A stretch of 64,000 nt of DNA from positions 2,848,501-2,912,500 of the forward strand of contig NZ_AP024620.1 of NCBI RefSeq assembly GCF_023734095.1. Direction: 5' to 3'. Under the pieces are notes generated by a model. It saw only the letters and a program-made list of their open reading frames with translations, was not told where the DNA came from and searched no databases. Positions within the stretch are counted from its first letter, which is position 1; each line of letters begins with the position of its first letter. Shown one piece after another: positions 31,325 through 49,269 of this stretch. The DNA is from Moorella sp. Hama-1. Lineage in GTDB: Bacteria > Bacillota > DSM-521 > Neomoorellales > Neomoorellaceae. The position numbers and the translations under genes were made by a program.

Positions 31325-32065
31325 TTATACCAGCATCACCATATCCTCATCCAGCCCCTGTTTATAAAGAGCAAGCCTGCCGCTGCTTTCCAGGGAACGC
31401 GGGGAGGGGTTGCCCAGGGAAAAGGGGAACAGGGCCGGGGAAGCCAAAACCTGGCGCAAGGGCAGCATACCGGAGCCGCCGGCCCGCAGGGTTGCTTCCA
31501 CCAGCCACGCCGCCAGCCCCTCGTCCCGGACCGGCCTTACCGGCGCGGCTTCATAAAGCCCCTTTTCCAGTGTCTCGCCAAGGACCTGCCAGTCGATAAA
31601 GCAGCGCAGTACCCGCCGGGCGGCCCGCGCTACCGTTTCTCGCTCACCCAGCTGCTCCCGCACCCGTCGCTGGACCTGGGCCGCCGCCACCCTCCCCTGC
31701 AACTTTTGCAGCCTGCCGGCGGCTTCGGCGACAATGGCTACAAAGGGATAGACAGCCATGGTCATACCCCAGTGGAGAGCCAGGTGGTCCTCCGGCGGTA
31801 GCTCCCTGAGGAACCTCAAGCCGTCGTCGCGCAAACCCTGGAGCTGAGCCGGTACGGTAACCCAAACTTTCATGAGAATACTGATGGCCTTTTCCCGGTT
31901 GCCACGCTCAGCCGTCCCACCTATCGACAGGCGCTCCCGCAGGAGTTCCTGCAGTCCATTGACGATTTCCTGCCGCCCGTACCCGGCCAGGTATAAAAGC
32001 GCCGTCCGCTCCAGCCATTCCAGCTGGATGCGCTGGCTGAAACCAACAGTTACATTACGATTCAT
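31325..32065 (-). CDS. brxA: last gene of the type 3 BREX operon, BrxA-like
   Basis: A 246-residue, mainly helical protein (ERTALLYLAGYGRQEIVNGL, LALHWGMTMAVYPFVAIVAE). Length, helical content and the place at the end of a brxF-brxC-pglX-brxHII-pglZ operon fit BrxA (DUF1819 type, a DNA-binding helical protein). Sequence similarity to BrxA is not obvious by eye, so the name rests mostly on position. It overlaps pglZ by four bases (ATGA), which ties its translation to pglZ. Confidence 0.7.
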   Translation of the reverse strand: MNRNVTVGFSQRIQLEWLERTALLYLAGYGRQEIVNGLQELLRERLSIGGTAERGNREKAISILMKVWVTVPAQLQGLRDDGLRFLRELPPEDHLALHWGMTMAVYPFVAIVAEAAGRLQKLQGRVAAAQVQRRVREQLGERETVARAARRVLRCFIDWQVLGETLEKGLYEAAPVRPVRDEGLAAWLVEATLRAGGSGMLPLRQVLASPALFPFSLGNPSPRSLESSGRLALYKQGLDEDMVMLV

Positions 32066-34068
32066 ACTTGCCTCCGTTCCAGGTGGATAAAGGGTACGAT
32101 GACTTCTTCAATAGAAATCCCGCCGTGGGCGACGATTCTCTCGTCCTGGCGGACAAAGGCCTTCCGGGGTGGCGCCAGGAGGGGCAGGTAGTCTTCCGGC
32201 AGGCCCAGGGGCGGCCAGGCGATGCTCCCGGGAAATTGATCTTCCACCTGTTTTCGTAGTATCTCGCTCGGATAAACCCTGGCGCGTTCTCCCCGCAGTT
32301 CCGCTGTCACGCCCTCGCCGGGCACCCCGCAACCGCCGGCCTCGATGTTCCCATGATCCGAAGTCAGGTAGACATCAAAACCCCGGGCCCAAAGGAGCTC
32401 CAGCAACCCGGACAGGTAACCCTCCTCCGCCCACTGGCGGACCTGGTTATGCATCCCGGCGGTCCCCAGTTGCATGCCGTGCATAATCTTATCAACCTTA
32501 TTTATTACCAGTCCCAGGACCCGCAGCCGCGGCTCCCCGGCCAGGATGTCCACTTCACCGGGATCACCATCCCCCAATACTTTCATATAACCGATCTCAG
32601 CTCTGGCCAGCCCCTGATTAATCCAGAACTGATTCCACAGGGCCGGTTCCCGCGCGGTGGTATAAATGCCCTCGCCCAGATAAAAGGGGGGCCGGCCAGC
32701 ATAGGCCGCCTGGCGGGAAACGGCCGTCAGGGTTGGCAGCCAGGCAAAGACACCCTCCTCCTGCCACCACCACCCGGAGGTCCTGGCAGCCAGCACCTGC
32801 CTTATTATCACCCACTGGTCAAAGGCCAACCCATCAATAAGTACCAGGGCCGCCCTTGCTGTTCTAGTTCCCGTCATGTTTCTGGCAAGGGCGCGAGGGA
32901 TATGGTGTACCATCACCGGCGGTATGGCCGGCTGATTATAAAGGCCGGCGTAGCGCTGTAGGACCCAGGCCAGAAAGGCGGCGTCCACCCTGGCCAGCAG
33001 GGCCTGAAAGCGTTCCCCTATATCCGGATAGTCCGCCATATGACCTGCAAACCGCAATACCACCAGTTCGGCCCAGGTACGGGCAAAGCCCACCCACTCC
33101 TGGTGCCGGGCCGTTATGCCTGGTAAGGCCTCCTTAGCTTTCTCCAGGAGGCCGTTAATGCGGCGTAGCCAATCGGCACCAGGATCAATGCGGAGCCCGG
33201 CGGCTATCCACTTCTCTTGCACCAGGAAAGCCTGGGGATGGGCCACAGGTTGCAGGTAACCCTCCAGGAAGAGGTTATCCAGATAAACCCGCACGTCGTC
33301 ATGGTCAAAGGGAAGGTCGATGGGTCCCGGGATAGAGGGGTGGTAGACCGCCCGGTTTTCCGCGGCGCGGCTGTCCGCCGCCATTACCCGGTGGTCCAGA
33401 AAGGCCGGCCACCGCTCCTGTAAAAAGGCGAAAAAGGCGCCCCGGTCGGGGATAATCATCTCCAGGGGCCAATCCCGGAAGCGCCCGCTCAGGCGCAAAA
33501 TCTGAATAATCCTTTCATCGAGTAGGGGCGGCAACCGCCGGCCCCGGTAGTGATGTCTGAGGAGTACCCGCAACAGGTCCTGGGGCTCCTTAATCAGCTC
33601 CGGGGCAATCTCGAAAACATACCGGAGAATAAAATCCTTGGTGGCATTGTCCCCCAGGGGCTGCGGGTTATATAAAACCTGCGCCCGGTAAAGGGCGTCC
33701 AGGTCACCCCGGTCCAGGTTGCTGACCACCGGGTAGCTCAGGTTGGGAAAGAGATCACCCAGGGTGAAGGATAATTTGCGGCTGTTTTGCCAGAGGTCGT
33801 AAGGCAGGGTGCAGGGGTCCAGGTTAAGTACCTGCAGGGCTACCACCGTATCCCCAGCCTCCCCCCTGTCCCACCGGGAACGATAATGGGATTCATAGGC
33901 CAGGCGGAAAGCAACATTATCCTCAAAGGTAAGCAAATCAAAGCCCCGCTCCCTGAGGGCGGCGAGTATCTCTTCCTCCACCAGAAGGCCGTCGGGATCC
34001 GCCACCAGGGTAAGGCGGTCGGCCCGGGAGGTGAATTCCTGCAAAATCTGGTCCCGCCAGCTTGCCAT
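32062..34068 (-). CDS. pglZ: BREX type 3 alkaline-phosphatase-like protein PglZ
   Basis: 668 residues. The C-terminal PglZ domain is an alkaline-phosphatase-superfamily fold: RAALVLIDGLAFDQWVIIRQ carries the first metal-binding Asp, VYLTSDHGNIEAGGCG the later Asp-His pair, and ERIVAHGGISIEEVIVPFI the last His. The N-terminal half is the helical region of PglZ proteins. PglZ is needed for BREX defence and for host methylation. The start codon abuts the brxHII stop with no gap, and the end overlaps the brxA-like gene. All metal ligands appear present, so it should be functional. Confidence 0.93.
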   Translation of the reverse strand: MASWRDQILQEFTSRADRLTLVADPDGLLVEEEILAALRERGFDLLTFEDNVAFRLAYESHYRSRWDRGEAGDTVVALQVLNLDPCTLPYDLWQNSRKLSFTLGDLFPNLSYPVVSNLDRGDLDALYRAQVLYNPQPLGDNATKDFILRYVFEIAPELIKEPQDLLRVLLRHHYRGRRLPPLLDERIIQILRLSGRFRDWPLEMIIPDRGAFFAFLQERWPAFLDHRVMAADSRAAENRAVYHPSIPGPIDLPFDHDDVRVYLDNLFLEGYLQPVAHPQAFLVQEKWIAAGLRIDPGADWLRRINGLLEKAKEALPGITARHQEWVGFARTWAELVVLRFAGHMADYPDIGERFQALLARVDAAFLAWVLQRYAGLYNQPAIPPVMVHHIPRALARNMTGTRTARAALVLIDGLAFDQWVIIRQVLAARTSGWWWQEEGVFAWLPTLTAVSRQAAYAGRPPFYLGEGIYTTAREPALWNQFWINQGLARAEIGYMKVLGDGDPGEVDILAGEPRLRVLGLVINKVDKIMHGMQLGTAGMHNQVRQWAEEGYLSGLLELLWARGFDVYLTSDHGNIEAGGCGVPGEGVTAELRGERARVYPSEILRKQVEDQFPGSIAWPPLGLPEDYLPLLAPPRKAFVRQDERIVAHGGISIEEVIVPFIHLERRQV

Positions 34069-36864
34069 CTACCCCGCACCTGCCTCCTCGACTCGAAGTA
34101 ATAACAGAGGAACCATCTCCGGCAGGAACAGGGCCTGCTGTTCCATCCGGCCGGACCACTCCTGCTGCTCCCGATCCAGTTGCGCCAGGCGGTGGGCCCG
34201 TACCGCCGGCAGCCCGATGCGTTCCAGCGCCCGCCGCCGGGCGGCGAAGGAGAACTCTCCCTTCTCCCGCTCCCGGTCCAGGCGCAACCGGTGGGCCTGG
34301 ACCAGTTCATCATAAAGGGGCTTGCCCCGGGCCTCTGCCGCTTCTTTTACCTTCGCGAACATCCGGCCCGATTCCTCCCCACTGCAGTAAAAAGTCACCC
34401 GAAGTTCGCCCTCCAGAAGCCGCTCCCAGATAAACCGGGATGTAGGCAGAAGTTCCCGGCCGTCATCATGGAGGAAATGGGGCATAATCCGCTGTTCCTG
34501 CCCCTCCAGGCCGTGCAGCTCAATACGCCATAGCGACCAGAAACCCTGCACGCCGGCAGCTAGCCCAGGCAGGGAAACGACAGGGATAGGCTGTCCCGGG
34601 GCAAAGGGCGATAATCCTATGACCAGGCCGCGTATCCGGGGGTCTTCCAGGGTTAACTGCCGGCCCTTTACTCCGAAGGTGGCTTCGGACCCGGTAAAGG
34701 TTACCCGTGCCATCTGTTCACCATCCGGCCAGGTCAGTTTCCATGCTTTATCCTGTTGCTCCACTTGCCCGCCGTAAGCCCTTAGATAGCTGACCGTCAT
34801 ACGTTCCACCCAGCAGGGCAATGGGTGGGCCAGCAACCGCTGTGCCTCCCCGGGGTCCAGGCCTTCGCCTGTGGCGGTAAAAAAGTATTGCTGGCGTGCC
34901 TCTTTCACCTGGTCAAGGAGCTGGTTCATAGTTGTTTCGACCCTGGCCTGCCAGTCCTCCGGGTGAAGAAGGGCCTGCAGGTACAGGTCATCAAATACTT
35001 CCCCGGCCTGTTCGGAATCCAGGACATCGCCGGTCTTATCCACGCCAAATTCATTGAAAATCACTACCAGCTTTTCCGCCAGCACCTCCTGTACCCGGTG
35101 CTCCACCGTATCCTCCAGCACGAAGTTTACCGCCCGCACCGGGTGCTTTTGCCCGATGCGGTCCACCCGGCCAATGCGCTGCTCAAGGCGCATGGGGTTC
35201 CAGGGAATGTCGTAGTTAATGACCACGTGGCAGAACTGCAGGTTCAAACCCTCGCCACCGGCATCGGTGGATATGAGGATGCGCGTTTCTCCGGCAAAAC
35301 TCTCTTGAACGATGGCCCGCTCCTCTAAGCCCATGGAACCGTTCAGACAGGCCACAGTAAACCCCCGCGCCGCCAGGAAATCCCGCAGCATCTCCTGGGT
35401 GGCCACAAACTCTGTGAAAACCAGCACCTTCAGGTCCGGGTCGGCCTCCTCCTGCTGCAGGCGATAGATCCACTCCAGGAGCGCCTCGGCCTTCGGGTCC
35501 GGCCCGGCGCTTTCTGCAGCCCTGGCGGTTTGTAAAAGCAGGTCCACCTCGGCCTGCTCGTTATGCAGTTCCTGCAGCTTCACTCGCAGGAGCGTATCCA
35601 GCTGTTCCTGGCCGTCCAGGTCGGCCCATTCGCCCTCCGGCAGCGTTGGGAAAAGGGCCAGTTCGTCTACCGGCGCCTGTAGCATCTCCAGCCGTCGTTC
35701 CAGGGCTGTGCGGATGGCCCGCGTCGAGGAAGTGACCAGGCGCTGCATGAGGACCAGCAGGAAGCCGATATAGTTTCTTTTCTCGCGTAAGGCCTGATTA
35801 TAGCCCTCCCTTACGTAATCCGTCACCGCTTCGTAAAGCCGGCGCTGGTAGCGGTGGCGCTCCTCCCAGGCCACCGGGATGAGCCGCGTCTGCCGGGGCT
35901 GAAAAAGGGGCCGGCCAGCCCCGTCAATGGCCTGCCGCTTCTCGGTCCGGATAATATAAAGCCGGACCCTTTCCCGGGTAACGGCCTCCGGGCCGGGAAA
36001 GGCCTGGCTGTCCAGCAGGGCCATCAGGCGGTAAAAAGCATCAGACTTGCCCTGGTGGGGGGTGGCCGAAAGGAGCAAAAGATACGGCGCCGCCTCGGCC
36101 AGGCCGCGCCCCAGTTTGTAGCGGGCCACCTGGTCGGTGCTGCCGGCCAGGCGGTGGGCCTCATCCACGATGACCAGGTCCCAGCCGGCGGTGATCAGGT
36201 CGGCAAAGCGCTCCCGGTTGTAATCATCCACCTGTTCCCGCGACCAGCCCCGGCGACCGGTGATGGGTTTGACTGCATCCAGGGGACAAACCACCTGGTC
36301 CCGGGTCCGCCACAGGTTCTCTGCCCGGGTGAACCGGCGGTAGGCGCTGCAATCGCCCGGGATAAGCAACTGGAAATCCTCATTGAAGTGGTTGCGCATC
36401 TCGGCTACCCACTGGGTCACAAGTCCTTTGGGCGCGATGACCAGGGTGCGCCGCACCAGGCCCCGGAGCTTTAATTCCCGCATAATGAGCCCGGCCTCGA
36501 TGGTCTTGCCCAGCCCCACCTCGTCGGCCAGGAGATACCGTACCCGGTCGCCGGCCACCGCCCGTGCCAGGGCCTGGATCTGGTGCGGCAGGGGAATGAT
36601 ATCTGCGGCCACGGGGGCGAGGAGAAGGTTGCGGGCCATGGCGTCGGCCACCCTAGCCGCAGCGGCGATATAGGCCACATGGTGCGGCCCGAACATGGCC
36701 CCGGACGAGTCCAGGGGTTTCAGTTGATCGGCCCTGACCCGGACCACCGCATCCCGGGATGGCAGCCAGACGCGGCATATAGAATCGCCCCATACGGTCT
36801 GGACCTCAATTATCTTACCGGCTTCACTTTTATCCTGTAACCATACCCATTCGCCGGGGTTCAA
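34069..36864 (-). CDS. brxHII: BREX type 3 SNF2-like helicase BrxHII
   Basis: 931 residues. After a short SH3-like N-terminal part (WVWLQDKSEAGKIIEVQ) comes the helicase core: DEVGLGKT (114-121), LVIVDEAHRLAG, LLLSATPHQG, LKVLVFTEFVATQEML, ISTDAGGEGLNLQ and QRIGRVDRIGQKHPVR. All motifs of SF2/SNF2 ATPases are intact. A Glu/Arg-rich C-terminal domain follows. Acts with PglX and PglZ in phage restriction. It is similar in plan to the truncated helicase at 16004-19111, which seems to belong to another system. It lies 103 bp after the large ATPase gene, so the inserted cassette stands between pglX and brxHII. Confidence 0.92.
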   Translation of the reverse strand: MNPGEWVWLQDKSEAGKIIEVQTVWGDSICRVWLPSRDAVVRVRADQLKPLDSSGAMFGPHHVAYIAAAARVADAMARNLLLAPVAADIIPLPHQIQALARAVAGDRVRYLLADEVGLGKTIEAGLIMRELKLRGLVRRTLVIAPKGLVTQWVAEMRNHFNEDFQLLIPGDCSAYRRFTRAENLWRTRDQVVCPLDAVKPITGRRGWSREQVDDYNRERFADLITAGWDLVIVDEAHRLAGSTDQVARYKLGRGLAEAAPYLLLLSATPHQGKSDAFYRLMALLDSQAFPGPEAVTRERVRLYIIRTEKRQAIDGAGRPLFQPRQTRLIPVAWEERHRYQRRLYEAVTDYVREGYNQALREKRNYIGFLLVLMQRLVTSSTRAIRTALERRLEMLQAPVDELALFPTLPEGEWADLDGQEQLDTLLRVKLQELHNEQAEVDLLLQTARAAESAGPDPKAEALLEWIYRLQQEEADPDLKVLVFTEFVATQEMLRDFLAARGFTVACLNGSMGLEERAIVQESFAGETRILISTDAGGEGLNLQFCHVVINYDIPWNPMRLEQRIGRVDRIGQKHPVRAVNFVLEDTVEHRVQEVLAEKLVVIFNEFGVDKTGDVLDSEQAGEVFDDLYLQALLHPEDWQARVETTMNQLLDQVKEARQQYFFTATGEGLDPGEAQRLLAHPLPCWVERMTVSYLRAYGGQVEQQDKAWKLTWPDGEQMARVTFTGSEATFGVKGRQLTLEDPRIRGLVIGLSPFAPGQPIPVVSLPGLAAGVQGFWSLWRIELHGLEGQEQRIMPHFLHDDGRELLPTSRFIWERLLEGELRVTFYCSGEESGRMFAKVKEAAEARGKPLYDELVQAHRLRLDREREKGEFSFAARRRALERIGLPAVRAHRLAQLDREQQEWSGRMEQQALFLPEMVPLLLLRVEEAGAG

Positions 36865-36967
36865 AAAAGGTTCCTCCAGCCCTATAAAATATGCTTAACG
36901 TGATTACTAGCTTATAACAGTAAATATTAGGTACTCTACTACTCCGTTTTTATATATACAATCTCAT

Positions 36968-39900
36968 CTACCGAAGTGCTGTATCTAGGACAAAAGCTTT
37001 TATCCGTACGCCCTGTTGTGACAATTCCCTGGCCTGGGCCTCAAATTGTCTTCTTGCCTCGCCAATATTTATCTTTGGAGAATGGCGTTTTCTATAATCT
37101 GCGTCATCCCACTGGGCACAGTTGAACCATCCGACAAGATATAGTCCATGACGGCAACGTTTATCTTTTAGATAACGGTCCACCAGTTGCGTTTTCATGG
37201 CATTATTCAGGTGGGGGTTCCAGCAACCTTTAACTTCTATAATGACTGTCACTGAATCGAATACCTCTCCGTGTGGACCGCGCACAAAGGCATCGACGTG
37301 AATATCTGTACGTTCACCAAACCCCGACCCCAACCCGCGACGTATTTCTACCTCACGATTGAAGATAATGCCCCTTTGTCTGAGGTCTTGATCCAGATAT
37401 ATTTTGATACTATCAGACAAGCTATTCTCGTCTTTAGGACGATACTTATTACCCGGGATCTCATTCCAAAGAAAAATTACGGCGGGTGTTTCACTGTGGA
37501 GCATGTTTTCTAATCGATTAAGAGATTCTATCAGCACGTCAAGAAGCTGATCGCCGTTTTGGACTAATCGAAGTTCATGATTAGACGTTAATTTAAGGAC
37601 TTCCCTGGATCTTAGCGGTATCCATGTACGGCGACGTGTAGCTGCCTCCGCTTCCAATACCGTCCATTTAAGCCACTCCAGTTCGGGTAACTGGTGAGCG
37701 ATTCGCCGGATGGCCACGCAGGCTTCATGGGTACCACGATTTTTGAGATAAGCCAGGATGGAATCTCTCCATTCAGCAATACTTCCTCTCGGGCCAATCC
37801 AATGGGCTTCTTCATGTATTGGATCTTCACTGTATGGAAACTGGCCGGCCAGCCAGATATATAGATCCGCGAGTTGCTCCTCCGCAAGCTTTTGTACGAT
37901 GGGAACCCCATGTAGGTCCGAGTCGTACGCTATATTTGAAACTACTTGCCGACCGAATTCAGTATTCTGCAGGATGGCAGGCCATACAACCGGCCAGCCG
38001 GCGTCGTCGGTGTGTTCCATGAGCACGCAGGCGGCGATTACTGCCCGCTCTCGTTCCTTTTCATCCATCGGGATCGGGAGCGTTATTAGTGTTTCTGCAA
38101 ATTCTCTGGCTTCGCCGACCTTATGGTCTAATAAGTCACCAAATAAGCACCCCATACATTTAGGCTTTAATTCCCTACTTTTCACCTTCACCAGTAAAGC
38201 GTTTGCAATGCGATCGTCCCAGCAACCATGCACCTTGTGAATAATAAATATGTGGTCGTGTTCTCTGTTTTCCTGTTCAATCAAAGTTATAAGGGTTTCG
38301 ATTATCTCTTCGGCAGCATATTGGTATGCCATATTTATTAATGCTGTATGGGGACTCTCTTTTTTAAGGTTGCTTGGTAAAGGGTAGGCGATAATGATCG
38401 GAGCCCATTTCCTCCAATTATCAGGAGAAAGGTTAACTAGAAAAGAAGGATCCTCCTGCATGAGTAGGAGTAATGCCCGATAGCCGGCAAACGCCGGACG
38501 ATGTAATATATTCTTGCCTAACCATTCGGAAGTTGCCGGATCCTGTTCCAATATATATCTTTTTGCCGCCTCTATGAATCTTTGTCTCGTCATGGTATCA
38601 GCCGTCACCCAACCGGGGAGAGTTGTAAGGTCGGCCTCGAGTTCATTCCCGTAATGGGTGCTATCGGGCTGCAGGGTCATCTCCATGTTAAGTCGCCACC
38701 AGGCTGTGGAGTTCCCTGCCTCGCACTCATCTAGAAGTGCCGCGATGCGTTCTCCTGGGGGTGGTTTTAGAAGGGGCCGACACTGCCGGTGATTCAGCCA
38801 CTTCTCTCTTTCCAGGTAACTTTCTTTCATCCTCTGAGCCTGGGGTGAATTAAGTTGAACGGGTTCTAAGAACCATGAAAACATCTCGACCAGGATGTGG
38901 TTAACCTGGCTGGCGTAATAAACGGCCTCTGCATGAATAGACTCACGAGAATCAAAAACCCTCTCTATCAAATGAGCCCAGGCCTTCTGGTTTTCGGGTT
39001 CTGATTCCTGCAGGTGGTCAATCATCCATGGCAGGTCCTTACTTAAAGCCACTGGTGTCTCAGTACCTACCAACCATATGAAATCCTCTTGAGGATTTTT
39101 AAGCATCGGAACTATTACTTCCAAAATTCTCCGGCGTTTACCATCATTATTGCTTAGTTCATTTTTAAACCTTTCTAGCGCAGGATGGCTTCTTACCACT
39201 CCGTAATAGTTTTTCATTCGAGAAAGAATTGCTTTAGCAAAGGCCTTCAATACATCCGGCCTAGTAATAAAATCCCAAGCCCGGAGCATTATTTTATCTT
39301 CCAGATCCTCAAACCTGGATAATAACAAATCTGTAGGCTGCTGCTCCGCTACCCAATTAAGAGCTACTGGTAGATCCCCAGGTTGGAGATGTTGAATAAG
39401 TTCCTGGGATAGGAATAAAGCGTAAGCCCCCAAAAAATTCTCTCTCTTGGGTGGAGTTAAAATGGCAAATAATTCATCCGCCGTCAAGAAAGCCGGCCAT
39501 ACCGCCAGGAGTCCACAACCTTTCAGTTCGTCTTCAGGATCTTCCCCTACCTCCCCAACGGCTAAAGGCTTTAACTTTTCTTTTGATTTATCATCACCTA
39601 TGCGATATATGGCATATGCAGCGTTTACACGTATCGGCAATGGTTGAGAGGGATCCAGCACAATATGTACGAACTCCTCCTGAAGTTCTTTTAACTCACA
39701 GGCTTCAGCAATATCTATGGCTACGCGTCGTACAACAATACCCTTATTAACATCAGAAATATAAGGATAAAGTTGCCCGGCCAGGCTTGGATGAGCGAGC
39801 TTTTTATACCCTCTACGAATATCTAGATTACGATCCAACAATTTTTCCTCGTCATAAAGTCGTAATAATTCATCTACCAATGCTGCCCGGTCCTTTAAAT

Positions 39901-41185
39901 CCGTAGTTGCTACATCGCTTCGGAGCAGAACTTCAGGATCAGCCTTCATAATCTCCCGAAACACTTCAGGTTTCATACCTGCCAGCCAGGCTGCCAGTTC
40001 ATGCAATTGTGGAACAATCCTCCCTCCAGGATCTCCCGGGTGAACAATGAGACTCATTATCTGGCTTGGTGTCACTCCGCGCTGAACCAGATACCATGCG
40101 GCGAGAAACTCTGCATAAGTTTGGTGAGACCAGCCTATACGATTTGACCCACGTGACGAAAAAAGAGCCGTAGCCAATGTCTCCAGAATCGCGGCTTCGC
40201 TAACTTCAAAATGCCTGCCATCTATGTTCTCGATCTCCCCACAAAGTTCTCTGATTGTCACGTCTTCCTCAGGAACATCGCCCTGGTCGATGCCGGTCCA
40301 GATAGCATACTTATTGGCAAAAATCGTAACGGCCGCTATACGGGCCGCCACCGCCATGCGTTGATCAGCGGTATAATCGCCTCTAAGCTTTGCGTCCCGG
40401 CGGCTTTGGTTCGTTTCTTCGCAGAGCAAGCGACAGCCCTGAAGGTACAATTCGGCCTGGGTGGAAGGGAATTGCCCGGTTTTGCTGGTTTTTATAAGCA
40501 TTTCAAGGGTGACAGGCTTAATGGCTAGCGGTACGGCCTCCATATGGTTAATTTTAAGCAAAAAAGTTTCAGGGTCCAAGCCATTAGCTTTGGCTGCTTC
40601 AGCAACGTCAATGCGTCGTAGCGGGACTAATTCGTATACTTTTACAGAATCGCTGCCCCAAAGTTGACTTAATCCATCTTCCAGGCTTGCCGGCCAGTCC
40701 AGTGTACGGCAGGCTATACGCAGATAAAGCCGCTCCAGAGGGTATTTCCTCAGTTCCTCGATCAGTAAGGCCGCTACTGTATCGATCCGCAATAGGCATT
40801 CATCCAGACTATCAAGGAATAGATGTAAAACATGCGTTCCATCCAGCCAGGCTCGAAAGGTCTGATTCTCAAAGACCGCTTGACATAGCCTGATGTCTGT
40901 TTGGTAGGCCCGAAGGTCAATCCATAAGCATTCTCTTTCCATTGTGCCAGGTCGGTTGCAAATTGATTTCCAATGTGACTTCATCGTCTCAGATTTACCG
41001 ATCCCTGGTTCACCTAATAACACCAGGCATGGAAACTCTGCTATAGACTCGAACGAAACAACATCCGGATTATAATATGAACCAAATTCTGAATCCGGGT
41101 CATAAAGGTACCCTCCATCTGACAGATTGATATTGCCTGCCCTCGGGCACCAAAACCGTTTCCAGTTATATATCTGCTTTAGCAT
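36968..41185 (-). CDS. giant STAND/NACHT-like NTPase with C-terminal PD-(D/E)xK-like nuclease domain
   Basis: 1405 residues from ATG 41185, where AGGAG lies 10 bases upstream; a frame extension to 41233 has no RBS. The start is MLKQIYNWKRFWCPRAG. The P-loop LGEPGIGKSE (about 56-65) and Walker B LHLFLDSLDEC (about 120-130) with LYLRIACRTLDWP (a sensor-1-like Arg region) mark a NACHT-type STAND ATPase. Residues about 400-1250 are helical, HEAT/ARM-like, and should sense a ligand. The last 135 residues have EVEIRRGLG, ERTDIHVDAF (Asp about 1294), TVIIEVKGCWNP (E-x-K about 1317-1319) and TQLVDRY, the layout of a PD-(D/E)xK endonuclease. Known Avs proteins put their effector at the N-terminus, so this order is reversed. 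AT-richer than the BREX genes around it, thus probably acquired. Confidence 0.75.
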   Translation of the reverse strand: MLKQIYNWKRFWCPRAGNINLSDGGYLYDPDSEFGSYYNPDVVSFESIAEFPCLVLLGEPGIGKSETMKSHWKSICNRPGTMERECLWIDLRAYQTDIRLCQAVFENQTFRAWLDGTHVLHLFLDSLDECLLRIDTVAALLIEELRKYPLERLYLRIACRTLDWPASLEDGLSQLWGSDSVKVYELVPLRRIDVAEAAKANGLDPETFLLKINHMEAVPLAIKPVTLEMLIKTSKTGQFPSTQAELYLQGCRLLCEETNQSRRDAKLRGDYTADQRMAVAARIAAVTIFANKYAIWTGIDQGDVPEEDVTIRELCGEIENIDGRHFEVSEAAILETLATALFSSRGSNRIGWSHQTYAEFLAAWYLVQRGVTPSQIMSLIVHPGDPGGRIVPQLHELAAWLAGMKPEVFREIMKADPEVLLRSDVATTDLKDRAALVDELLRLYDEEKLLDRNLDIRRGYKKLAHPSLAGQLYPYISDVNKGIVVRRVAIDIAEACELKELQEEFVHIVLDPSQPLPIRVNAAYAIYRIGDDKSKEKLKPLAVGEVGEDPEDELKGCGLLAVWPAFLTADELFAILTPPKRENFLGAYALFLSQELIQHLQPGDLPVALNWVAEQQPTDLLLSRFEDLEDKIMLRAWDFITRPDVLKAFAKAILSRMKNYYGVVRSHPALERFKNELSNNDGKRRRILEVIVPMLKNPQEDFIWLVGTETPVALSKDLPWMIDHLQESEPENQKAWAHLIERVFDSRESIHAEAVYYASQVNHILVEMFSWFLEPVQLNSPQAQRMKESYLEREKWLNHRQCRPLLKPPPGERIAALLDECEAGNSTAWWRLNMEMTLQPDSTHYGNELEADLTTLPGWVTADTMTRQRFIEAAKRYILEQDPATSEWLGKNILHRPAFAGYRALLLLMQEDPSFLVNLSPDNWRKWAPIIIAYPLPSNLKKESPHTALINMAYQYAAEEIIETLITLIEQENREHDHIFIIHKVHGCWDDRIANALLVKVKSRELKPKCMGCLFGDLLDHKVGEAREFAETLITLPIPMDEKERERAVIAACVLMEHTDDAGWPVVWPAILQNTEFGRQVVSNIAYDSDLHGVPIVQKLAEEQLADLYIWLAGQFPYSEDPIHEEAHWIGPRGSIAEWRDSILAYLKNRGTHEACVAIRRIAHQLPELEWLKWTVLEAEAATRRRTWIPLRSREVLKLTSNHELRLVQNGDQLLDVLIESLNRLENMLHSETPAVIFLWNEIPGNKYRPKDENSLSDSIKIYLDQDLRQRGIIFNREVEIRRGLGSGFGERTDIHVDAFVRGPHGEVFDSVTVIIEVKGCWNPHLNNAMKTQLVDRYLKDKRCRHGLYLVGWFNCAQWDDADYRKRHSPKINIGEARRQFEAQARELSQQGVRIKAFVLDTALR

Positions 41186-41401
41186 GAGGTTTTCACTCCT
41201 AAGGTTTGACACCGAATATCCAATGATGGACATACTATCGCCGGATTAAAACTCATAATTTTGTCTTTATTAATCAACCCTAATCAGTCCCCTTGTATCC
41301 TGCTACAGTAACTACACATGGGAAAACGCTTTCCCTAAAGTGTACGTTCCTTGATGACCCAAATACATTTTCCCCTGGATCTACGCCATTTGCCCAGGCA
41401 C
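41186..41401. other. gap between the two cassette genes
   Basis: 216 bp, AT-rich. It holds GGGAAA-ACGC-TTTCCC (about 41321-41336), a short hairpin, and could carry a private promoter of the STAND ATPase gene on the minus strand. No gene is seen. Confidence 0.4.
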
Positions 41402-42481
41402 TCATTTCTGCATTCCCATGACAGCTCGGCCATACTTATTCCAGACATCTTCGATAGAAAGCCGTTTTACTATATCTCTGAGAGCATCGAGCGCTTTCTT
41501 AGTATAACGTTTGTAGCGTTGAGACTTGATTTTCTTCTCGCCATACATTTCTGGATCATCCCAAATGTTAAGTTCAAACATATAGGCTCTTGTTTTGGGT
41601 ACCGTCAGCCCCAGCTTCTGAGCAATATCTGAAACGCTTAAACTATATTTATCGAACCAGTCAATCTCCTGCTTAACCAAGGTTCCGACAACTGGTTCAC
41701 CGTCCTTGGCTATTCGAACCGCAAGGTCAGCGTCCTTTTTTATTCTATAGTAGATCGGAATACCTTCACCCTGGGTATCCAATTTTAGCTGAGCAATTTC
41801 AGGAAGGAGAACACTCCATTCCTCGCCTCTTCGTCTACGACTAATCGCTTTCCTCAGTTCAGCTTCAGTCACGCGTTCGGCATTATGACGACTTGCCGTG
41901 GCCAAAGCCAGGATAGGCCGAAGTCTGGCTGCGGCCTGAATTCCTTTACGACTACCAGCCTGCAAAAGGACATCAACTTGAGTAAGTTCGCTATCGATTA
42001 GAAGTTGCAAATCTTTAGGGGGGCGGGTTGAAATCGGTAACACCCGTTCTGGGATACAGTCTGCGAGCCTCTCCGCGAATATCCGGTTTAAAAGGTCATC
42101 AAAGAGCGTTACAGCCGCCTGCGCCTGCACATAGAGTAGATTTTCGGAAATTTCCTGGTAATAATGCATTGCAATATCCCTATGAGCGTCCAATATAGAT
42201 AACGTCGATCTTTCATCTGTCGATATCACTTCGATCTCATTCTGCGCTATCTCAAGGCATTTATCAAATGTATATGTATATTTCTCTCCTTTTTCGTGAA
42301 TAGTGCCTTTCCTTTGCTTAATAATCGCCTTTAATAGCATTTCAAAGGCATGATGCAGAAGTATAAGCACGCCTTCCGCACGCCCTTGATCATGAGGGCG
42401 GTTAAACAATTCAATAGCAAGTACCAGAGAGTTGATAGCGCGTTTCTTAAGTTCTACCACATCTCTTTTTATCCTTGGCAT
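41402..42481 (-). CDS. DUF3644-type protein with HEPN-like Rx4H motif
   Basis: A 359-residue protein that starts 3 bp after the pglX stop, with GAGGAATG as RBS. The N-terminal half is helical, with VLILLHHAFEMLLKAIIKQR, typical of DUF3644, and AHRDIAMHYYQE, where Arg101 and His106 form the Rx4H signature of HEPN ribonucleases. The C-terminal half has a helix-turn-helix (SVSDIAQKLGLTVPKTRAYM) that could bind DNA. Similar proteins occur among phage-defence genes. AT-richer than pglX. It most likely forms a cassette with the STAND ATPase downstream (216 bp between them). RNase activity is inferred from the motif only. Confidence 0.75.
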   Translation of the reverse strand: MPRIKRDVVELKKRAINSLVLAIELFNRPHDQGRAEGVLILLHHAFEMLLKAIIKQRKGTIHEKGEKYTYTFDKCLEIAQNEIEVISTDERSTLSILDAHRDIAMHYYQEISENLLYVQAQAAVTLFDDLLNRIFAERLADCIPERVLPISTRPPKDLQLLIDSELTQVDVLLQAGSRKGIQAAARLRPILALATASRHNAERVTEAELRKAISRRRRGEEWSVLLPEIAQLKLDTQGEGIPIYYRIKKDADLAVRIAKDGEPVVGTLVKQEIDWFDKYSLSVSDIAQKLGLTVPKTRAYMFELNIWDDPEMYGEKKIKSQRYKRYTKKALDALRDIVKRLSIEDVWNKYGRAVMGMQK

Positions 42482-42484
42482 AAA

Positions 42485-45400
42485 TCATTCCTCTTCTGTA
42501 CGAGTAACCGCCTGGTCGTACCACATCAACAGCTTGGGGTCCTCCTGGAGGACGCTTTCCGGGATTTTGCGGGCGACGGTGATGATGGTCCGGTAGTCGC
42601 GTTCCTGCCAGGCTTTTTTGAAGCCGGCGCGGATGGCTTCCAGGCGGAAGACCTTGAGCCGGCGCTGGGTGGACTGGCGGTAATCGTCAAATTCCTTCAG
42701 CAGGGCGCGCTCGCGCAGCTTTTCCAGGTCGGCGGCGCGGTTGGGGTCGGGGATATACCAGCGGTCTTTAGCGGCATTCAGGAGTTGTGGGTCGGTAGTC
42801 TCCAGGCCCCTGATGGTGACGTTCTCCTGCCGTTCCTCCAGTTCCTGGATAAGGGGCCGGTATTTCTCCGAGCACTTCAGCCAGGCCACGATGGGGGCCG
42901 GGATGGGGCCCTTGCCGTCGTAACGTAAAAAATTTTGCTCCAGCAGTTCCGTTAATTCCAGAGGCTTCTCGTGCTTCTGCCAGCCGGAGATTTCCCGCAT
43001 AAACCGGGGATGAATCTCCTGGAAGGTCTGGGGTTTTTTCGCCAGCTCCGCTTTCAGCCACTGGACGGCAGAGGCCTCATCGGTGACGAAGAACTGGAGC
43101 TGGAGCACTTCCTGCACCGTCATGCGCTTGCGGTCATATTCCACCACCTGATCGGGCAGGAAGTACATGCCGTCGCGCGCGGGAAAGCGCTGTGCCAGCC
43201 CGGCGTAGAATTCCGCCGCCGACAGGGGAACCATGACGTTGCGCCGCACGTGGAAGGCCACCATGCGGTCGTAAAGCAGGTAATTGGTGCGCTCGGCGAT
43301 AACCTGGGCCTGGCCGTTTTGGGCGGTAAAAACGGGCAACTGGCGCAGGTGGGTGCGGACAAAGTCCCATACCCCTTCCTCCGTACCCGCTTCCAGCTTG
43401 AAGCGCTCCTCCAGGCCGCCGTTGGGTTTATAGGCGGATATGACCAGGTCCTGCTTGACGGCGCCGCCGCTAGTAACCTGTTTGAAAGTCCCCTGTTTCT
43501 TATCCAGGATGCGCACGTCGGCGACCACAAAGCCGGCGTCCTGGAGGGCTTCCTGGATGGCGTTCCAGACGCTGTTTTTAGAGTTGTGGAAGACCACCGT
43601 CATCCAGCGTCCGGGCTTGAGGACCCGGTAGTACTCCCGGAAACAGCGGGTCATAAGTTCTTTATATTCAGCCAGCCCTTTGCTCTGGACCTTGTTCTCA
43701 ACGGCCTCCGGTTTATTGTTGGTAAAAACCCTGAGCCATGCCTCCCAGGGAAAGTTGAGTTCGGAGTACATCAGGTTGCCGCCAAAGGGCGGATCTACAA
43801 AAATGTACTCAACAGTGTATTTCCTGCTATTCAATTTCGCTGTAGAGCATAGGAATATGAGACTCCTTATAGCAGATATATACCGGAACGCCTTAATATG
43901 CTTTGTTAGTTTATGAGGATAAAAATGTAAAGGATTATTCTCTCTGCTCAATGCAGGAATATATAAGGTTCCCGAAAGAACACTCATTGGAAATGACCAA
44001 TTGCCATGTTTTACACGTTTACTTAGTCCATGATCAAGTGAATTAAGCCAATAGTTCATAGTCCTGTTGTATCCAACTCTTTTCCTTAATGCGCTCAGCA
44101 CCCACAAATTCCGCTTCGTATAAAAATGGTGCACGTGGGTTATGCCGTGGGAAACCTTCGGCTGTTCGGTATTGTACCCCTCCGGCATCCGGTCAGTAGG
44201 GAACCAGTAGGGAATGTCGCTCTCCTCAATCTTCTCAATGAGGGCTAGGTCGAAGGCGTCGGGCTTTTTCTCAAAGCGCTTCCGGCCGTAGGTATAGTTA
44301 ATGAGCACCGGTACCTGTTTGGTCTGGCGGACGGTCTGGTTGATGGCTTTATCATACCGCGTCACCCAGGCCCGCTCCATGGTGCGCTTGGTGAGGCGGG
44401 CGTTGCAATGGGGGCAGGGGAAGGCGTCACGCACCCGGCCCGCCTCTTTGTCCACGGCGGCATCCCAGAAGATCACCTCGCCGCTGCACTCCGGGCAGAC
44501 AAAGACGTCGGACCAGACGGTATAGTTGATACGGCCCCAGGACAGGCCGGATACTTTCGTCCACCCGGCCGGGGGCGTGGAGGAAAGGAGGTCGAGGGCC
44601 CTGGCCACCCGGTCGCCGGCAGGGTTGTGCAGGGTAAGGTACATCCAGCCGCACTCGTCTTCTACTTCCTGCAGGATGCGCCGGGCCTCGCCCTCGAATT
44701 CGGCCACATCCACCGGCGTGTTATAGTTATAGGCGATAAAGGTGGCCGCCGGGGAGAGGTCGTTCAGGATGGCCCGCCGGGCCCCCAGCCGGGAGAAGGG
44801 CCGCCAGACCGTGCGGCCGTTCTCCTCTTCTGGTTTGAGGATAGTGCCGTCGTCCTGTACCCGGTAGCCCAGGGATTCCACTGCCTGGCGGTCGCCGCAG
44901 AGCTGGGCGGCCACGCCGGTCATGCCGGTGCCGGCAAAGCCGTCGAAGACCAGGTCCCCGGGTTCCGTATAGTGCAGGATGTAGCGCATGATGGCTTTAT
45001 GGGGCACTTTGGTGTGGTAGGAATGGGCGTTGTAGATGGGGTCATTCTTCCCCTCGCTCACGTCCGCCGCGAAGGGCTCCTTGTTATAAGGCACAGCCGG
45101 GTCGTAATGCTTGCCGTAGAGCTTGATGAAATCATCCAGGAAAGGGTTGGGGCAGGCGGTGTAGTAGGGCGGGTCGGAGAGACGCAGAATGTCCTCGATC
45201 TCCCCGTGGGGGAAGCCGACCTCATCCTGCCAGCGCTGCAGCAGGTCCTTGCCCGCATCCCCCCGGCGCATACGCTGGGCCAGTTCCCACAGCCGCGCCT
45301 CATCGCCCACAGGCCACCTTTCCACCGACCGCAGGCGGGCCACGGCGTCCTCCACAGAAGTAAAGGGCACCCCGCCCAGTTTGGCCTGCAGTTCCTCCAG

Positions 45401-45538
45401 CCCCTGGCGCAACTTGTCGGTAAAATAGGCCCGCCTGGCTTCTTCATTAACGAAGGTCAAACCTAAACACTCTACCGGCTGCTCTTCAGCCCCGCCGGGC
45501 TGCCCTGTAAATAATTCTGTCTCTGCCATTCCTTGCAT
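42485..45538 (-). CDS. pglX: BREX type 3 adenine-specific DNA methyltransferase PglX
   Basis: 1017 residues. It marks host DNA by N6-adenine methylation and takes part in phage exclusion. SDPPYYTACPNP (121-132) is the catalytic DPPY motif, VFDGFAGTGMTGVA (197-210) the SAM-binding FxGxG motif, and YIFVDPPFGGNLMYSE (about 575-590) a second DPPF copy. A zinc ribbon is suggested by FVCPECSGEV and FPCPHCNARLT (about 350-385). The segment of about residues 476-579 is clearly AT-richer than both sides, which suggests exchange of that part by recombination. It follows brxC by 11 bp. The order of DPPY before FxGxG marks the type 3 form rather than the PglX of types 1 and 2. Confidence 0.9.
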   Translation of the reverse strand: MQGMAETELFTGQPGGAEEQPVECLGLTFVNEEARRAYFTDKLRQGLEELQAKLGGVPFTSVEDAVARLRSVERWPVGDEARLWELAQRMRRGDAGKDLLQRWQDEVGFPHGEIEDILRLSDPPYYTACPNPFLDDFIKLYGKHYDPAVPYNKEPFAADVSEGKNDPIYNAHSYHTKVPHKAIMRYILHYTEPGDLVFDGFAGTGMTGVAAQLCGDRQAVESLGYRVQDDGTILKPEEENGRTVWRPFSRLGARRAILNDLSPAATFIAYNYNTPVDVAEFEGEARRILQEVEDECGWMYLTLHNPAGDRVARALDLLSSTPPAGWTKVSGLSWGRINYTVWSDVFVCPECSGEVIFWDAAVDKEAGRVRDAFPCPHCNARLTKRTMERAWVTRYDKAINQTVRQTKQVPVLINYTYGRKRFEKKPDAFDLALIEKIEESDIPYWFPTDRMPEGYNTEQPKVSHGITHVHHFYTKRNLWVLSALRKRVGYNRTMNYWLNSLDHGLSKRVKHGNWSFPMSVLSGTLYIPALSRENNPLHFYPHKLTKHIKAFRYISAIRSLIFLCSTAKLNSRKYTVEYIFVDPPFGGNLMYSELNFPWEAWLRVFTNNKPEAVENKVQSKGLAEYKELMTRCFREYYRVLKPGRWMTVVFHNSKNSVWNAIQEALQDAGFVVADVRILDKKQGTFKQVTSGGAVKQDLVISAYKPNGGLEERFKLEAGTEEGVWDFVRTHLRQLPVFTAQNGQAQVIAERTNYLLYDRMVAFHVRRNVMVPLSAAEFYAGLAQRFPARDGMYFLPDQVVEYDRKRMTVQEVLQLQFFVTDEASAVQWLKAELAKKPQTFQEIHPRFMREISGWQKHEKPLELTELLEQNFLRYDGKGPIPAPIVAWLKCSEKYRPLIQELEERQENVTIRGLETTDPQLLNAAKDRWYIPDPNRAADLEKLRERALLKEFDDYRQSTQRRLKVFRLEAIRAGFKKAWQERDYRTIITVARKIPESVLQEDPKLLMWYDQAVTRTEEE

Positions 45539-45549
45539 CCCTCTATCTC

Positions 45550-48500
45550 TTATTCCAGAATAACCCGCACCCTGGCCGGGTCTTTGCCGGCCGTGAGCCC
45601 GGCCAGGTAGTTTTCAAAGCGCTGGCGCAGTTCGGGAATGGTGGCCGGGGAGCCGCCTGCCAGCAGGGCGGCACGCAGGTCCTCGCTTTTGATGAGCACT
45701 TTAGTCAGGCCGGAAAGGACCTCCCGTACGGCCTGGATGAACCCCCGGTCCAGGTGTTCCGGCAGGGCCCGCGCCTGGAGAAAGGCTTCGATGCGCTGCC
45801 GCGCCCCGGGCTGGAGCAGGGCCAGGTTTTCCCGGGTGGTCGGGTCTTCCAGGTTGGTGATAAGGGTTCGCGTCCAGGTGTCCAGAAGCAGGTCCAGCTC
45901 CTCGTCCAAGGCGTCAAGGATAGCCCCGGCCGGCCCTTCGCCGCGTTCGCTGGCGGGTTTAAAGCCGCAGTGGGGGCAAACGGGCGCCGTCGCCAGGTCC
46001 CCGGGGGTCAGGGCAAAACAGGTCCGGAAGGATCCCAAGCGGTTCTGGAATGCGGTTAGCTGGCCGGCCGGCATCAAGTCAATGGTGGCCAGCTGTTGCA
46101 ACTTCTCCAGACGGCCGTCGGCAGCCAGGGCGGCCTTGCGCCGGTCTTCATTGGCCCCCAGGCGCGCCCGGGTATGGAGGGCCATGTAAATATCGCTATA
46201 CTGTTTCTTCAGTTCAACCAGCCGGCGGATTTCCTGGCGCCGGTCCACGGCCTGAAGGTTCCCTGCTTCCCCAATCTCCTGCAGCTGTTTAAGAATCTCC
46301 TCCCGCAGGGCCTGCGCCCGGTCGATCCAGGGATGATCCGGGGGCAGTACAGCCTCGGCGGTGGCCAGATAGGCCGCCAGGGGGCCCATTTCCACCACCA
46401 GCTGGCGGAGGCTTGCCACCTCCTGCAACGCCTGCAGGCCGTCCCGGTGGGCCGCGACTTCCGCCGCCCCGTACCGGAAATTCTTCAGCTTACCCGGTGA
46501 GTTAAATACCTGCAGGGATTCCAGGAAGGCGCGGGCCTGTTCCAGACGGGCATGATAACGCTGCACCTCGTCTTCTGTCAGCAGGCTCTGCCCCCAGAAG
46601 GGGAAGCCGCCCTGCAGGTGCTCCCGGGCCATTACCAGTTGCTCCACTGTCTCCCTGACGGCCTGCTGCAGTTGCTGCACCGGCCCCTCCTTCCCCTGGG
46701 TGACCTCCACCGCCAGCCCCGGCGCCAGGCCCAGCAACTCGAAGAGGGCCTTGATCCCCGCTACGTTCCATTCCCGGGGCAGCTTGATATGTTTGAAGGC
46801 ACTTAACTCGGCCACCGGCGTCGCCGCCAGGGCGGGTAAGGCGGTGGCGTCAAACTCCTGCCCGGTAATGGATAAGATGAGGTCCCCCGAGTAAACCAGG
46901 GCTGCCAGGAGGACCACCACCCATTCGGGCTCCAGGCGGAAGGTTTCCGGGGCCATATACTCCACGTCTTTTACCGGCCGGATGATCTCCGGCCGGTTCA
47001 CCACCTGCCCCGGCCCCTTCTGGCGCAACAGCTCCAGGATATGGCGGGCGTAAGGGGAACGGGAGGGGTCCAGCCGTTCACCGTCCAGGAGTTCCAGGGC
47101 GTCCAGCACGGCGGTTCCCTGTTTGGTCCTGTTGCTCCCGGCTATCCAGCGCAGGGCGTCCTGGGCTGCCTGGGGCCGGTTGGCGCTGGTGATGAGGACG
47201 GAAAAAACCGGATAGTTGGGGGCTTGATTCTGGAAGTTAGTCGCCAGGCAGGCCGCGGCCACCGCGTTAACCAGGTCGCGGACATTGCCGCGGCTGCTGA
47301 TGATTGCCGCCTGGGTACCCTTCAACCAGGCCAGTAAGGGCTTGTGCCGTCCCTGGTGGGTAACTGTATAAGCTGCGGCCAGGTGCTCCTGCAGCCACTG
47401 GACCATGGCACGAAGGAAATCGCCGGCTTTAGCTTGATAGGTAGCCTTAGCCTGGCCCGATGAAGTCGCGGCCAGGTCGGTGGCGGCCGCATAGTTCCGT
47501 AACGCCGTACGAAAATCGTCGTCGGCGCCGGTAAGGCGGAAGAGAACCTCATCGGCCTTTTTCTCATCCTTGAAGGGCGGCGGGTCATAGGGCTGGATGA
47601 AATAGATATAAAAGTCCCGGGGTGGGTAGGCGGTGCTGCGCTCGTTGGGCGTACCGAAGAATAGCCACCCCTGCCGCGCCGCTTTGTGCTCCCGCCACTC
47701 CACCTCGTAGACCCAGAGGTTCCGGTACTGCGTAGCGGGCAGGTCTTCACACTCCAAGATCTGTTTCAAAGCCTGGTGGTAGGCCCGGTTCAAGTTGTCA
47801 TCAGCCAGGCTCTCCGCCCGCTTCTCAATAAGGGCGTCGAAGTCGTCGGTCTTTTTCAGGTCCAGGTAGTACTGGCGGTTGTCCGGGTTGGTGGAAATAA
47901 ACTGGCCGCTGACGGTACGGTGGATCTCCCGGAGGACCGTCTCCACCTGGGACAGGAGGTCGTCGGCCGGGTTGCCGCCCAGCTCTTCAATGCCGGTCTG
48001 GTAGAGGCAGAGGGTGTCGCGCAGTTCCTCCGGTGTGGCCCCGATAGGAGCATAGATGTCGCCGGTGGTCAGGCGGTGGATGGAAAGGGCGTGGATGATC
48101 CGCAGGGCCATGGGCCTGTAGGCCGGCCGGGTAAAGGCCTGCTGGATGCGGGCTTCCAGGACCTGGCTGCACTCGATAACGGCCTTGATCTCCGGGACAG
48201 CCCGGTAAGAGGAGTTCCCCCGCAAGGTATCCCAGTAACTGTCGTAGGCGATGAGGCCCGGGTGGTCCGGCGGTACCTCCTGTTCCAGGAGCCCTTTCAT
48301 GGCCAGGGACAGGGTCTTTAACGCCTCGCGCTTCTCCACCACCGTGATGCGCTCAAAGATGTCGAAGTAATCCGGGTGGACGGGAAAGAGACGCACAAAC
48401 TCGTCCAGGCGTTCGTTCAGGTTGCCGTAGCAGCGGGCAAAGGGCAGGAGGTATTCCCGGACCAGAGCGCGCTGTTTGGCGGTCTTCTTTAACAAACGCT

Positions 48501-49269
48501 CGCCGACCACGAACTTGATATCCCGGCGGGCGATTAGTACCTGCTCAAAGCGATCCTTTACCCGCCGGACGCTGTCGGCAACAAAGGCAAAGCGGGGGCT
48601 GTCGAAGATCGCCTCCTGGACACCGGCCAGAAAACGGAAGCGCAGGTCTTTGCATACCTCGCCCATCTCCCGCAGGAAGTTCAGGTCGAAGACTATTTCC
48701 TGGTCATCGCGGTAGCGCAGGTAGTCCAGCAATTCATCCACCACCACCAGCAGACCGTGGTCCGGATACTGCTGGTGGAAGGCCGCCATCATGGTTTCCA
48801 GGGCATCCTTGTTGTTGGTGATGGTGCTGGCCGCCGGAAAGGTGTAATCAACGCCCATGGCAGCCAGGTGTTCTTCCAGCTCGGCAGCAATAATGTCCCG
48901 CAGGGCCATGGTGGTGGCGCCGATTTCCAGGCGGACGACCTTAAAGCGGCCCGCTATAGTGCGGGCGGCGGCTGCCACCCCGGGATGCTTGAGTTCGGCT
49001 ACCAATTCGGCGTGTTCGGCGATGGTGGAGATGACGGCCATGAGGTGGGATTTACCGGTACCGTAATTGCCTACCACCAGGATGCCTTTGTTATCGGCCG
49101 GCCGGTCGAACTGCAGGTTCGGAAAAACTACGCCGGTGAGCCTTTCGGCCATGTCTTCCGAGACGACGTAGGTAGCCACCAGCTGCCTGGCGGCCGTCAT
49201 TTTATCGGCATCCCGCAGCTGGACCACGGTTTCAATGGGATCGAACTGGATCAAATCGCCGTAACGCAT
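45550..49269 (-). CDS. brxC: BREX type 3 P-loop protein BrxC (DUF6079)
   Basis: 1239 residues with an AAGGAG RBS. Walker A is [11 protein letters not shown] (66-75) and a Walker B-like [16 protein letters not shown] follows (about 175-190), as in AAA+ ATPases of the BrxC/PglY group. The middle and C-terminal thirds are helical; CPHCGFKP near residue 1100 pairs with no obvious second CxxC, so metal binding is doubtful. BrxC is a core BREX component, essential for both restriction and methylation in studied systems. It lies between brxF (86 bp upstream) and pglX. Confidence 0.92.

Follow-up and report, generated by a model that had tools for sequence, protein, structure and literature searches.

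The closest described relative of the case reported here is bxaP, a gene that, in passages of a 2024 Nature Communications paper, is 'inserted between PglXI and BrxHII' in a bacteriophage exclusion (BREX) locus and is presented as an independent, likely abortive defence; BxaP protects BREX-free E. coli, in which neither growth at a multiplicity of infection of 2 nor phage replication was seen (PMC10799925). Here we analyse a 64,000-nucleotide stretch of the Moorella sp. Hama-1 genome (the window), in which this same junction of a type 3 BREX operon is taken up by two added genes, one for a DUF3644/HEPN-type protein and one for a predicted NLR-like NACHT/STAND protein, and we compare it with other type 3 BREX loci. 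Both junctions flanking pglX in type 3 BREX, above all pglXI–brxHII, are probably defence-gene slots for self-contained second-line defences that are gained, lost and swapped, and the window's slot would hold two independently acquired defences. BxaP resembles the window case as an accessory gene at pglXI–brxHII with a likely abortive role; it acts without BREX, and differs from the window case in being a single, different protein at a junction that those passages do not describe as a general slot.

Other accessory effectors have been placed near BREX cores. Rakesh & Krishnan (2026) catalogue effectors that lie inside BREX and BR/Hma core loci or next to them and are proposed to be auxiliary or backup layers, among them restriction endonucleases and HNH, HEPN, OLD-TOPRIM and Schlafen proteins; in the main text of that article, as far as it was available, the words NACHT, Cas10 and intergenic are absent and no preferred junction was seen named, although its figures or supplements may show examples (PMC12839542). 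BrxU also lies beside pglX, between brxC and pglX, and is unlike the window case in belonging to type 1 BREX and in being a type IV enzyme of the GmrSD type, according to parts of its description (PMC8565348). Beyond these three partly available articles, no article found in the open-licence PubMed Central (PMC) literature describes the pglX junctions as general slots or reports that BREX loci hold NACHT or type III-C genes. BxaP and auxiliary nucleases are thus already published, and what goes beyond the print we found is the generality of the slots, their edges and the window's gene pair. A preliminary description of the window had taken the site to be undescribed, which these publications correct; nor could it show that both pglX-flanking junctions, and pglX–brxH most of all, probably serve as general slots for many different occupants.

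Two added genes in a type 3 BREX operon

The type 3 BREX operon on the minus strand of the window is complete, with all six core genes in order: brxF (49356..49913; PADLOC BrxF, E = 9.9e-57), brxC (45550..49269; Pfam DUF6079, 1724 bits; PADLOC BrxC), the methyltransferase gene pglXI (42485..45538; PADLOC PglXI, 1480.6 bits), brxHII (34069..36864), pglZ (32062..34068; Pfam and PADLOC) and brxA (31325..32065; PADLOC BrxA, E = 6.2e-85). The helicase gene matches Pfam SNF2-rel_dom and a PADLOC model that is named BrxHI/BrxHII and described as BrxHI (1446.7 bits); we assign it to BrxHII because of the gene order and its SNF2-type domain. Core genes are separated by gaps of 86, 11, 0 and −4 nucleotides (nt), and the single break in this contiguity, as the preliminary description had it, lies between pglXI, the 5′ border, and brxHII, the 3′ border: an occupied slot of 5,620 nt (36865..42484, minus strand) whose two genes stand on the strand of the operon. 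One begins 3 nt past the pglX stop, as had been noted, and encodes a 359-amino-acid protein (P0002; 41402..42481), a DUF3644/HEPN-type predicted RNase of the PADLOC PDC-S19 class. The other (P0001; 36968..41233) was characterized from partial NCBIfam matches, AlphaFold2 models and fold searches as an NLR-like NACHT/STAND gene whose product has a solenoid and ends in a PD-(D/E)XK-like domain. Measured gene by gene, G+C fractions of 0.442 (DUF3644) and 0.469 (STAND) against 0.58–0.63 in the BREX genes agree with the AT-richness reported for both. Their G+C at third codon positions (GC3), 0.41 and 0.45 against 0.70–0.79 in the BREX genes, is the lowest among the 30 window open reading frames (ORFs) of at least 200 amino acids. 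Scans of the slot gave no evidence for promoters (4 found, 9.5 expected by chance) or terminators (9 found, 5.7 expected, standard deviation 2.5).

Occupancy of the core junctions

Searching 398 genomes with pglX gave 46 matches, the window's own included, of which 41 were examined (those in G017, G032, G153, G267 and G394 were left out; G and L numbers denote genomes and loci). The sample also comprised one further genome of the window's class, five of another phylum, four plasmids (of 6 records) and one viral contig. Elsewhere, pglX relatives were found in the phylum of G429 (5/299 genomes) and in the window's class (4/22) but, in a search without a positive control, not in the phylum of G401 (0/146). 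A search in the phylum of G404, a Paenibacillus genome, gave matches with E-values identical to those of the first search, which indicates Bacillota as the window's phylum, and added no loci; viral contigs held one relative (L178). Genome stretches were chosen before their own slot contents were known. Iterated BLAST served to label the core genes of 57 loci; one junction or more could be scored in 52 of them, and cargo was defined as any same-strand ORF of at least 100 amino acids between two core genes. Rows left out are L128, whose contig ends before brxH and which does not count among the 36 pglX–brxH loci below, L157, with no labelled pglX, L096, L159, L160 and L176, with no scored junction, and L162, with an unclear gene order.

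The pglX–brxH junction is occupied by cargo in 16 of 36 loci, in contrast to brxH–pglZ (0/32; Fisher P = 5e-6), pglZ–brxA (0/37; P = 1e-6), brxF–brxC (0/10; P = 0.009) and, in loci without brxH, pglX–pglZ (1/13; P = 0.02). On the other side of pglX, the brxC–pglX junction is occupied in 9 of 47 loci when the upstream parts of L127 and L131 are included (5/45 by script, 7/45 with two unscored long gaps). Together the two pglX-side junctions are occupied in 25 of 83 cases against 0 of 79 for brxF–brxC, brxH–pglZ and pglZ–brxA combined (P = 8e-9). When loci are clustered by pglX, pglX–brxH is occupied in 14 of 29 clusters at 80% identity or more and in 12 of 24 at 70% or more. Cargo GC3 is below core GC3 in all 16 occupied loci (Wilcoxon P = 3e-5).

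The occupants are mostly unrelated between loci, and in 14 of the 16 occupied pglX–brxH junctions they match defence-gene models or are homologous to cargo that does; the genes in L158 and L174 are unmatched. Beside the DUF3644 and STAND genes of the window, this junction holds a GajA/OLD-like ATPase-TOPRIM gene (L122), a type III-C effector set identified by PADLOC as Cmr1-Cmr6-Cas10c-Cmr4-Cmr5-Cmr3 (L124:5280-12941), six genes homologous to that set (L138:5657-13244), an Mrr-type restriction endonuclease (L127), PDC-M34A (L130), SIR2-HerA (L132), an NsnB-like ATPase (L139), an SMC-like gene with a partial Ppl match (L143), PDC-S06 (L147), Ppl with HEC-03A/B (L163), HEC-03 homologues (L165), HEC-01A/B (L166) and a DNA methylase with a UvrD-type helicase (L172). 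At brxC–pglX we found SIR2-HerA (L138:16135-18977), six one-for-one homologues of the type III-C set (L186:3206-10576, the upstream part of the L127 operon), six genes in L187:2920-12978, a 622-amino-acid gene (L132:1154-3022) and, on the plasmids L168 and L169, an 'RNA-binding domain-containing' protein. Because SIR2-HerA and type III-C-like genes occur at both junctions, the same kind of cargo can stand in either slot. No direct repeats of at least 24 nt, as a CRISPR array near the type III-C genes would have, were found in L124:1-13000 or L138:1-13300. In L128, a 966-amino-acid gene (L128:91-2991) without a Pfam or PADLOC match follows a NucS_C-type restriction endonuclease behind pglX.

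Edges of the slots

Related loci differ in what they carry. At pglX identities of at least 80%, L127 has the Mrr gene in pglX–brxH where L129 and L131 are empty, and L143 and L147 hold different genes there, with a third kind in L174 (at least 70%); L165 and L166 also differ, and L164 is empty. At brxC–pglX, L127 and L131 each carry six cargo genes, different from each other, and L129 carries none. In the L127/L129/L131 and L143/L147/L174 sets, nucleotide homology reaches to within 0–5 codons of the pglX stop and resumes within about the first 3–7 codons of brxH, which puts the edges of these sets within a few codons. The nearest pglX found to that of the window is 73% identical and belongs to a locus that is itself occupied (G322, L122); for this reason we only infer the exact edges of the window's slot.

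A predicted NLR-like nuclease

Relatives of P0001 are encoded in 159 stretches of the GTDB contig collection, and counts of STAND loci refer to the best 80 of these. The protein more likely starts at M17 (41185) than at 41233, because an AGGAG lies 10 nt upstream, because of where its relatives start and because residues 1–17 have a model confidence (pLDDT) below 50; most relatives among those listed start within about 13 residues of a YNWKRFW-type motif. The models point to an NLR-like protein with a NACHT/STAND switch (residues ~17–493; 39755..41185), a helical HEAT/ARM-like solenoid as presumed sensor (residues ~494–1221; 37571..39754) and a predicted PD-(D/E)XK-like nuclease domain (residues 1222–1421; 36971..37570), all encoded on the minus strand. 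Walker A (GEPGIGKS, 74–81) and Walker B (LFLDSLDE, 138–145) motifs are present, and G77, G79, K80, D141 and D144 are kept in 67 of 67 long relatives. P0001 was folded by AlphaFold2 as two overlapping parts, residues 1–740 and 700–1421, with mean pLDDT of 91.3 and 88.4. Foldseek matches the first part to NLRC4 (4kxf, E = 4.1e-8) and Avs4 (8dgf, E = 3.3e-6), and also to NLRP7 and NLRP3, and VIA-align places residues 14–492 on NAIP5-NLRC4 (6b5b; Z 19.1, root-mean-square deviation 5.1, 399 aligned). The solenoid is nearly all-helical in the models and has weak HEAT/ARM fold matches only (E ≥ 4e-3), along with weak alphaRep/HEAT profile matches near residues 511–556. The C-terminal domain model has the alpha-beta-beta-beta-alpha-beta order that is right for PD-(D/E)XK, and E1294, D1310, E1333, K1335 and Q1349 recur unchanged in every relative with the domain (49/49), 18 of the 67 long relatives, in which it is lacking or cut short, being omitted from this count. 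Models, fold comparisons and conserved residues support the architecture of STAND module, helical region and PD-(D/E)XK-like end that had been read from the translation.

At the level of sequence, P0001 has weak Pfam matches only, no PADLOC family at E ≤ 0.1 and nothing in the PDB. EruA (NCBIfam NF058535; 281.1 bits, cut-off 1000; best stretch residues 138–787) and HyoA (NF058534; 171.9 bits, cut-off 1200) align with it in part, across the NACHT and helical region, at scores so far below the curated cut-offs that we rejected membership of either family; a literature search for EruA and HyoA found nothing relevant. A family profile of residues 700–1421 gave a weak match to DNA ligase III (1uw0, E = 0.008) at residues ~841–889, in mid-solenoid. 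In P0001, as in Avs4 and the animal NLRs (8dgf, NLRC4), a STAND/NACHT fold leads into a long helical part. The predicted effector of P0001 is C-terminal, whereas those of Avs proteins usually stand at the N-terminus.

Fourteen cyanobacterial relatives (L029, L031, L035, L036, L041, L042, L044, L046, L047, L052, L053, L064, L084 and L086) diverge after about residue 1220 and end in another tail of at least 82 residues, that of L053 running off the contig. In L035 a CHAT domain replaces the nuclease (Pfam E = 5e-9), and six of the cyanobacterial tails hold a hydrophobic stretch that reads by eye as membrane-spanning. Replacement of the nuclease by CHAT or other tails suggests that the C-terminus is an exchangeable effector of the NLR type. 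Three STAND relatives were found on viral contigs.

A predicted HEPN ribonuclease

P0002 matches Pfam DUF3644 (E = 2.7e-19; 69.9 bits, cut-off 27.6) and, nearly end to end, PADLOC PDC-S19 (PDLC04951; E = 6.8e-116, 385.3 bits). The Rx4H motif pointed out earlier, R101-DIAM-H106, holds up on alignment with six plasmid relatives at 30–39% identity, R101 and H106 being invariant in all seven sequences, P0002 itself included, and on this sequence evidence the protein is a predicted RNase. It may have a C-terminal helix-turn-helix (a weak HTH_24 match, E = 0.077), and its sequence search of the PDB gave one chance-level match only. No DUF3644 relative was found on viral contigs; in Xanthomonas, an Eco29kI restriction-modification pair precedes a DUF3644 gene, at a distance of 438 nt. 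In sections of a survey of HEPN proteins, the EC042_2821-type HEPN overlaps DUF3644, DUF4145 is tabulated as a HEPN family, and other HEPN families are found in restriction-modification operons and rarely in Pgl operons (PMC3710099). BxaP, from the passages describing it, has a DUF4145-type N-terminus and a weak HEAT-like C-terminus; DUF4145 is not among the Pfam matches of P0002 at E ≤ 1, a statement about the domain, the BxaP sequence itself not having been compared.

Separate relatives of the two genes

The preliminary description had presented the two genes as a cassette, and one could imagine a two-component system of HEPN effector and STAND sensor-nuclease: they are adjacent, on the same strand, similarly low in GC3 and inside one operon. 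The comparison of loci speaks otherwise. Among the genomes searched that carry a STAND relative, a set without a positive control that covers 42 of the 80 loci, none holds the HEPN gene (0/42). The available flanks of the 80 STAND loci hold neither a DUF3644 gene nor a BREX operon, although only 41 of the 80 have 5 kb on both sides and near neighbours elsewhere could be missed. Six of six examined plasmid DUF3644 loci (of 12 records) have no STAND, BREX or Hma gene in flanks of 4–12 kb. Inspected relatives of either gene stand apart from the other, and in the window itself the two are spaced by about 216 nt counting from M17, or 168 nt with the longer ORF. A single two-component system is therefore very unlikely, and the best explanation is that the window genes are independently acquired defences; the cassette, not recurring in any other genome or locus examined, does not survive as a unit.

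Among 94 proteins neighbouring STAND genes, from part of the loci, defence matches are scattered, mad2 being the commonest (7/94), with no fixed partner; the BrxHI/BrxHII model matches 2 of the 94. The closest full-length relatives among the best 80 of 159 are 62% (G112) and 61% (L025) identical, and both genes lie directly downstream of HmaA-HmaB-HmaC-like genes, the L025 operon being fully of Hma type. Hma, which combines a methylase, a helicase and an ATPase, is described in available text as a relative of type 3 BREX (PMC12839542). These Hma (BR type 1) loci differ from the window in having no DUF3644 gene and in carrying the STAND gene after the operon, not inside it. The window brxH matches the L025 Hma helicase at 35%, and L082 has a weak helicase match. 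By locus, a STAND-nuclease gene just after HmaA-HmaB-HmaC-like (BR type 1) genes is seen twice, at L009:7793-19943 and in L025.

In the surroundings of the window's operon, brxA is followed on its own strand by an AbiEii-type nucleotidyltransferase toxin gene (29689–30381; Pfam E = 5e-17). The operon is flanked by three transposases, one of the PD-(D/E)XK family and two of the DDE type (21693–22670, 26003–27853 and 52617–54311), and may therefore sit in a mobile or rearranged region.

Discussion

Because the occupants have many mechanisms, the simplest reading is that the BREX operon houses a second line of defence that is exchanged through recombination in the flanking core genes, and we regard such slots for exchangeable, self-contained defences as the probable explanation. 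Cargo would probably be exchanged by recombination in the conserved core genes on either side, would share expression with the operon and may serve as backup when BREX fails. In the window, the DUF3644/HEPN protein would cleave RNA and so stop growth or abort infection. The solenoid of the STAND protein, a predicted bacterial NLR, may sense a phage protein or state; its NACHT module is predicted to oligomerise with ATP and so to cluster the PD-(D/E)XK domains at the C-termini, which would then cut DNA and abort infection. A second, possibly abortive layer of defence, as the preliminary description proposed, is the likely role, and is made plausible by the published precedent of BxaP at the same junction, as far as its description was available (PMC10799925).

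Several observations weigh against slots of this kind. The pglX–brxH junction is not unique, since brxC–pglX is also used and differs from it in occupancy only at P = 0.017. The count of 16 in 36 is modest, and it comes from loci that are mostly of Bacillota, share ancestry and in some cases share a genome. Some cargo matches are to broad models only (type II methylase, UvrD helicase). L138 has both pglX and brxH broken into two ORFs each, and pglX is split in L172 and L156, so some cargo hosts may be damaged operons. The L164/L165/L166 alignment has no clean edges; no recombinase was found in the cargo scanned, and the slot borders of the window are joined by a 9-nt match only. For the window proteins, the predicted nuclease domain has no Pfam match and no separate PDB match (in the fold search with the whole C-terminal model, the list was filled by the solenoid). 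DUF3644 relatives of the P0002 clade are rare, found in 1 of 398 genomes, the window's own, and in 0 of 244 genomes of another phylum in a search without a positive control.

Insertions beside pglX might simply be tolerated as least harmful to BREX, with cargo and BREX functionally unlinked. The great diversity of cargo function, the use of two junctions with type III-C genes in either and the lack of any shared recombination signal seen would all fit; yet where pglX–brxH is empty the two genes lie close together, 15 of the 20 unoccupied junctions falling within −8 to +9 nt and being as tight as the never-occupied brxH–pglZ (17/32 within the same range, nearly all the remainder overlapping more), and occupants that are of defence type in 14 of 16 cases are not random genes. 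We judge mere tolerance somewhat unlikely. Rather unlikely, in our estimate, is the most elaborate form of the slot model, in which slots dedicated to cassettes flank the methyltransferase gene on either side and, with edges within a few codons, exchange whole immune systems up to type III-C as last-resort modules whose firing is set by the activity or inhibition of BREX, the window's NLR-like nuclease and HEPN RNase being one such set.

Placement inside the operon could also mean that occupants are kept silent by BREX parts until BREX is blocked by a phage protein, for instance an Ocr-like DNA mimic, as with PrrC-PrrI and PARIS, and published proposals for HEPN proteins in restriction-modification and Pgl operons (PMC3710099) and for backup effectors in BREX (PMC12839542) lean the same way in the portions available. 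Guarding of this kind is clearly unlikely, since BxaP, the one tested occupant found for the pglX–brxH junction, works without BREX according to the available text (PMC10799925), and both window proteins have relatives in places with no BREX. An explanation by chance, through assembly error or the usual clutter of defence islands, would draw on the general clustering of defence genes and on the many loci that come from fragmented assemblies; set against the 0/32 and 0/37 at the brxH–pglZ and pglZ–brxA junctions of such operons, and with a window genome that is a single contig of 3.32 Mb and 99.64% complete, it is extremely improbable.

If slots beside pglX are general, as we think probable, they would supply a rule for finding new defence systems: inspect the genes beside pglXI in type 3 BREX. 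Since the slots also yield known systems, including SIR2-HerA, Mrr and type III-C CRISPR, slot genes that match no model are good defence candidates. Related BREX loci with differing cargo would also form natural sets in which functional coupling of BREX with accessory defences could be told from their mere co-inheritance.

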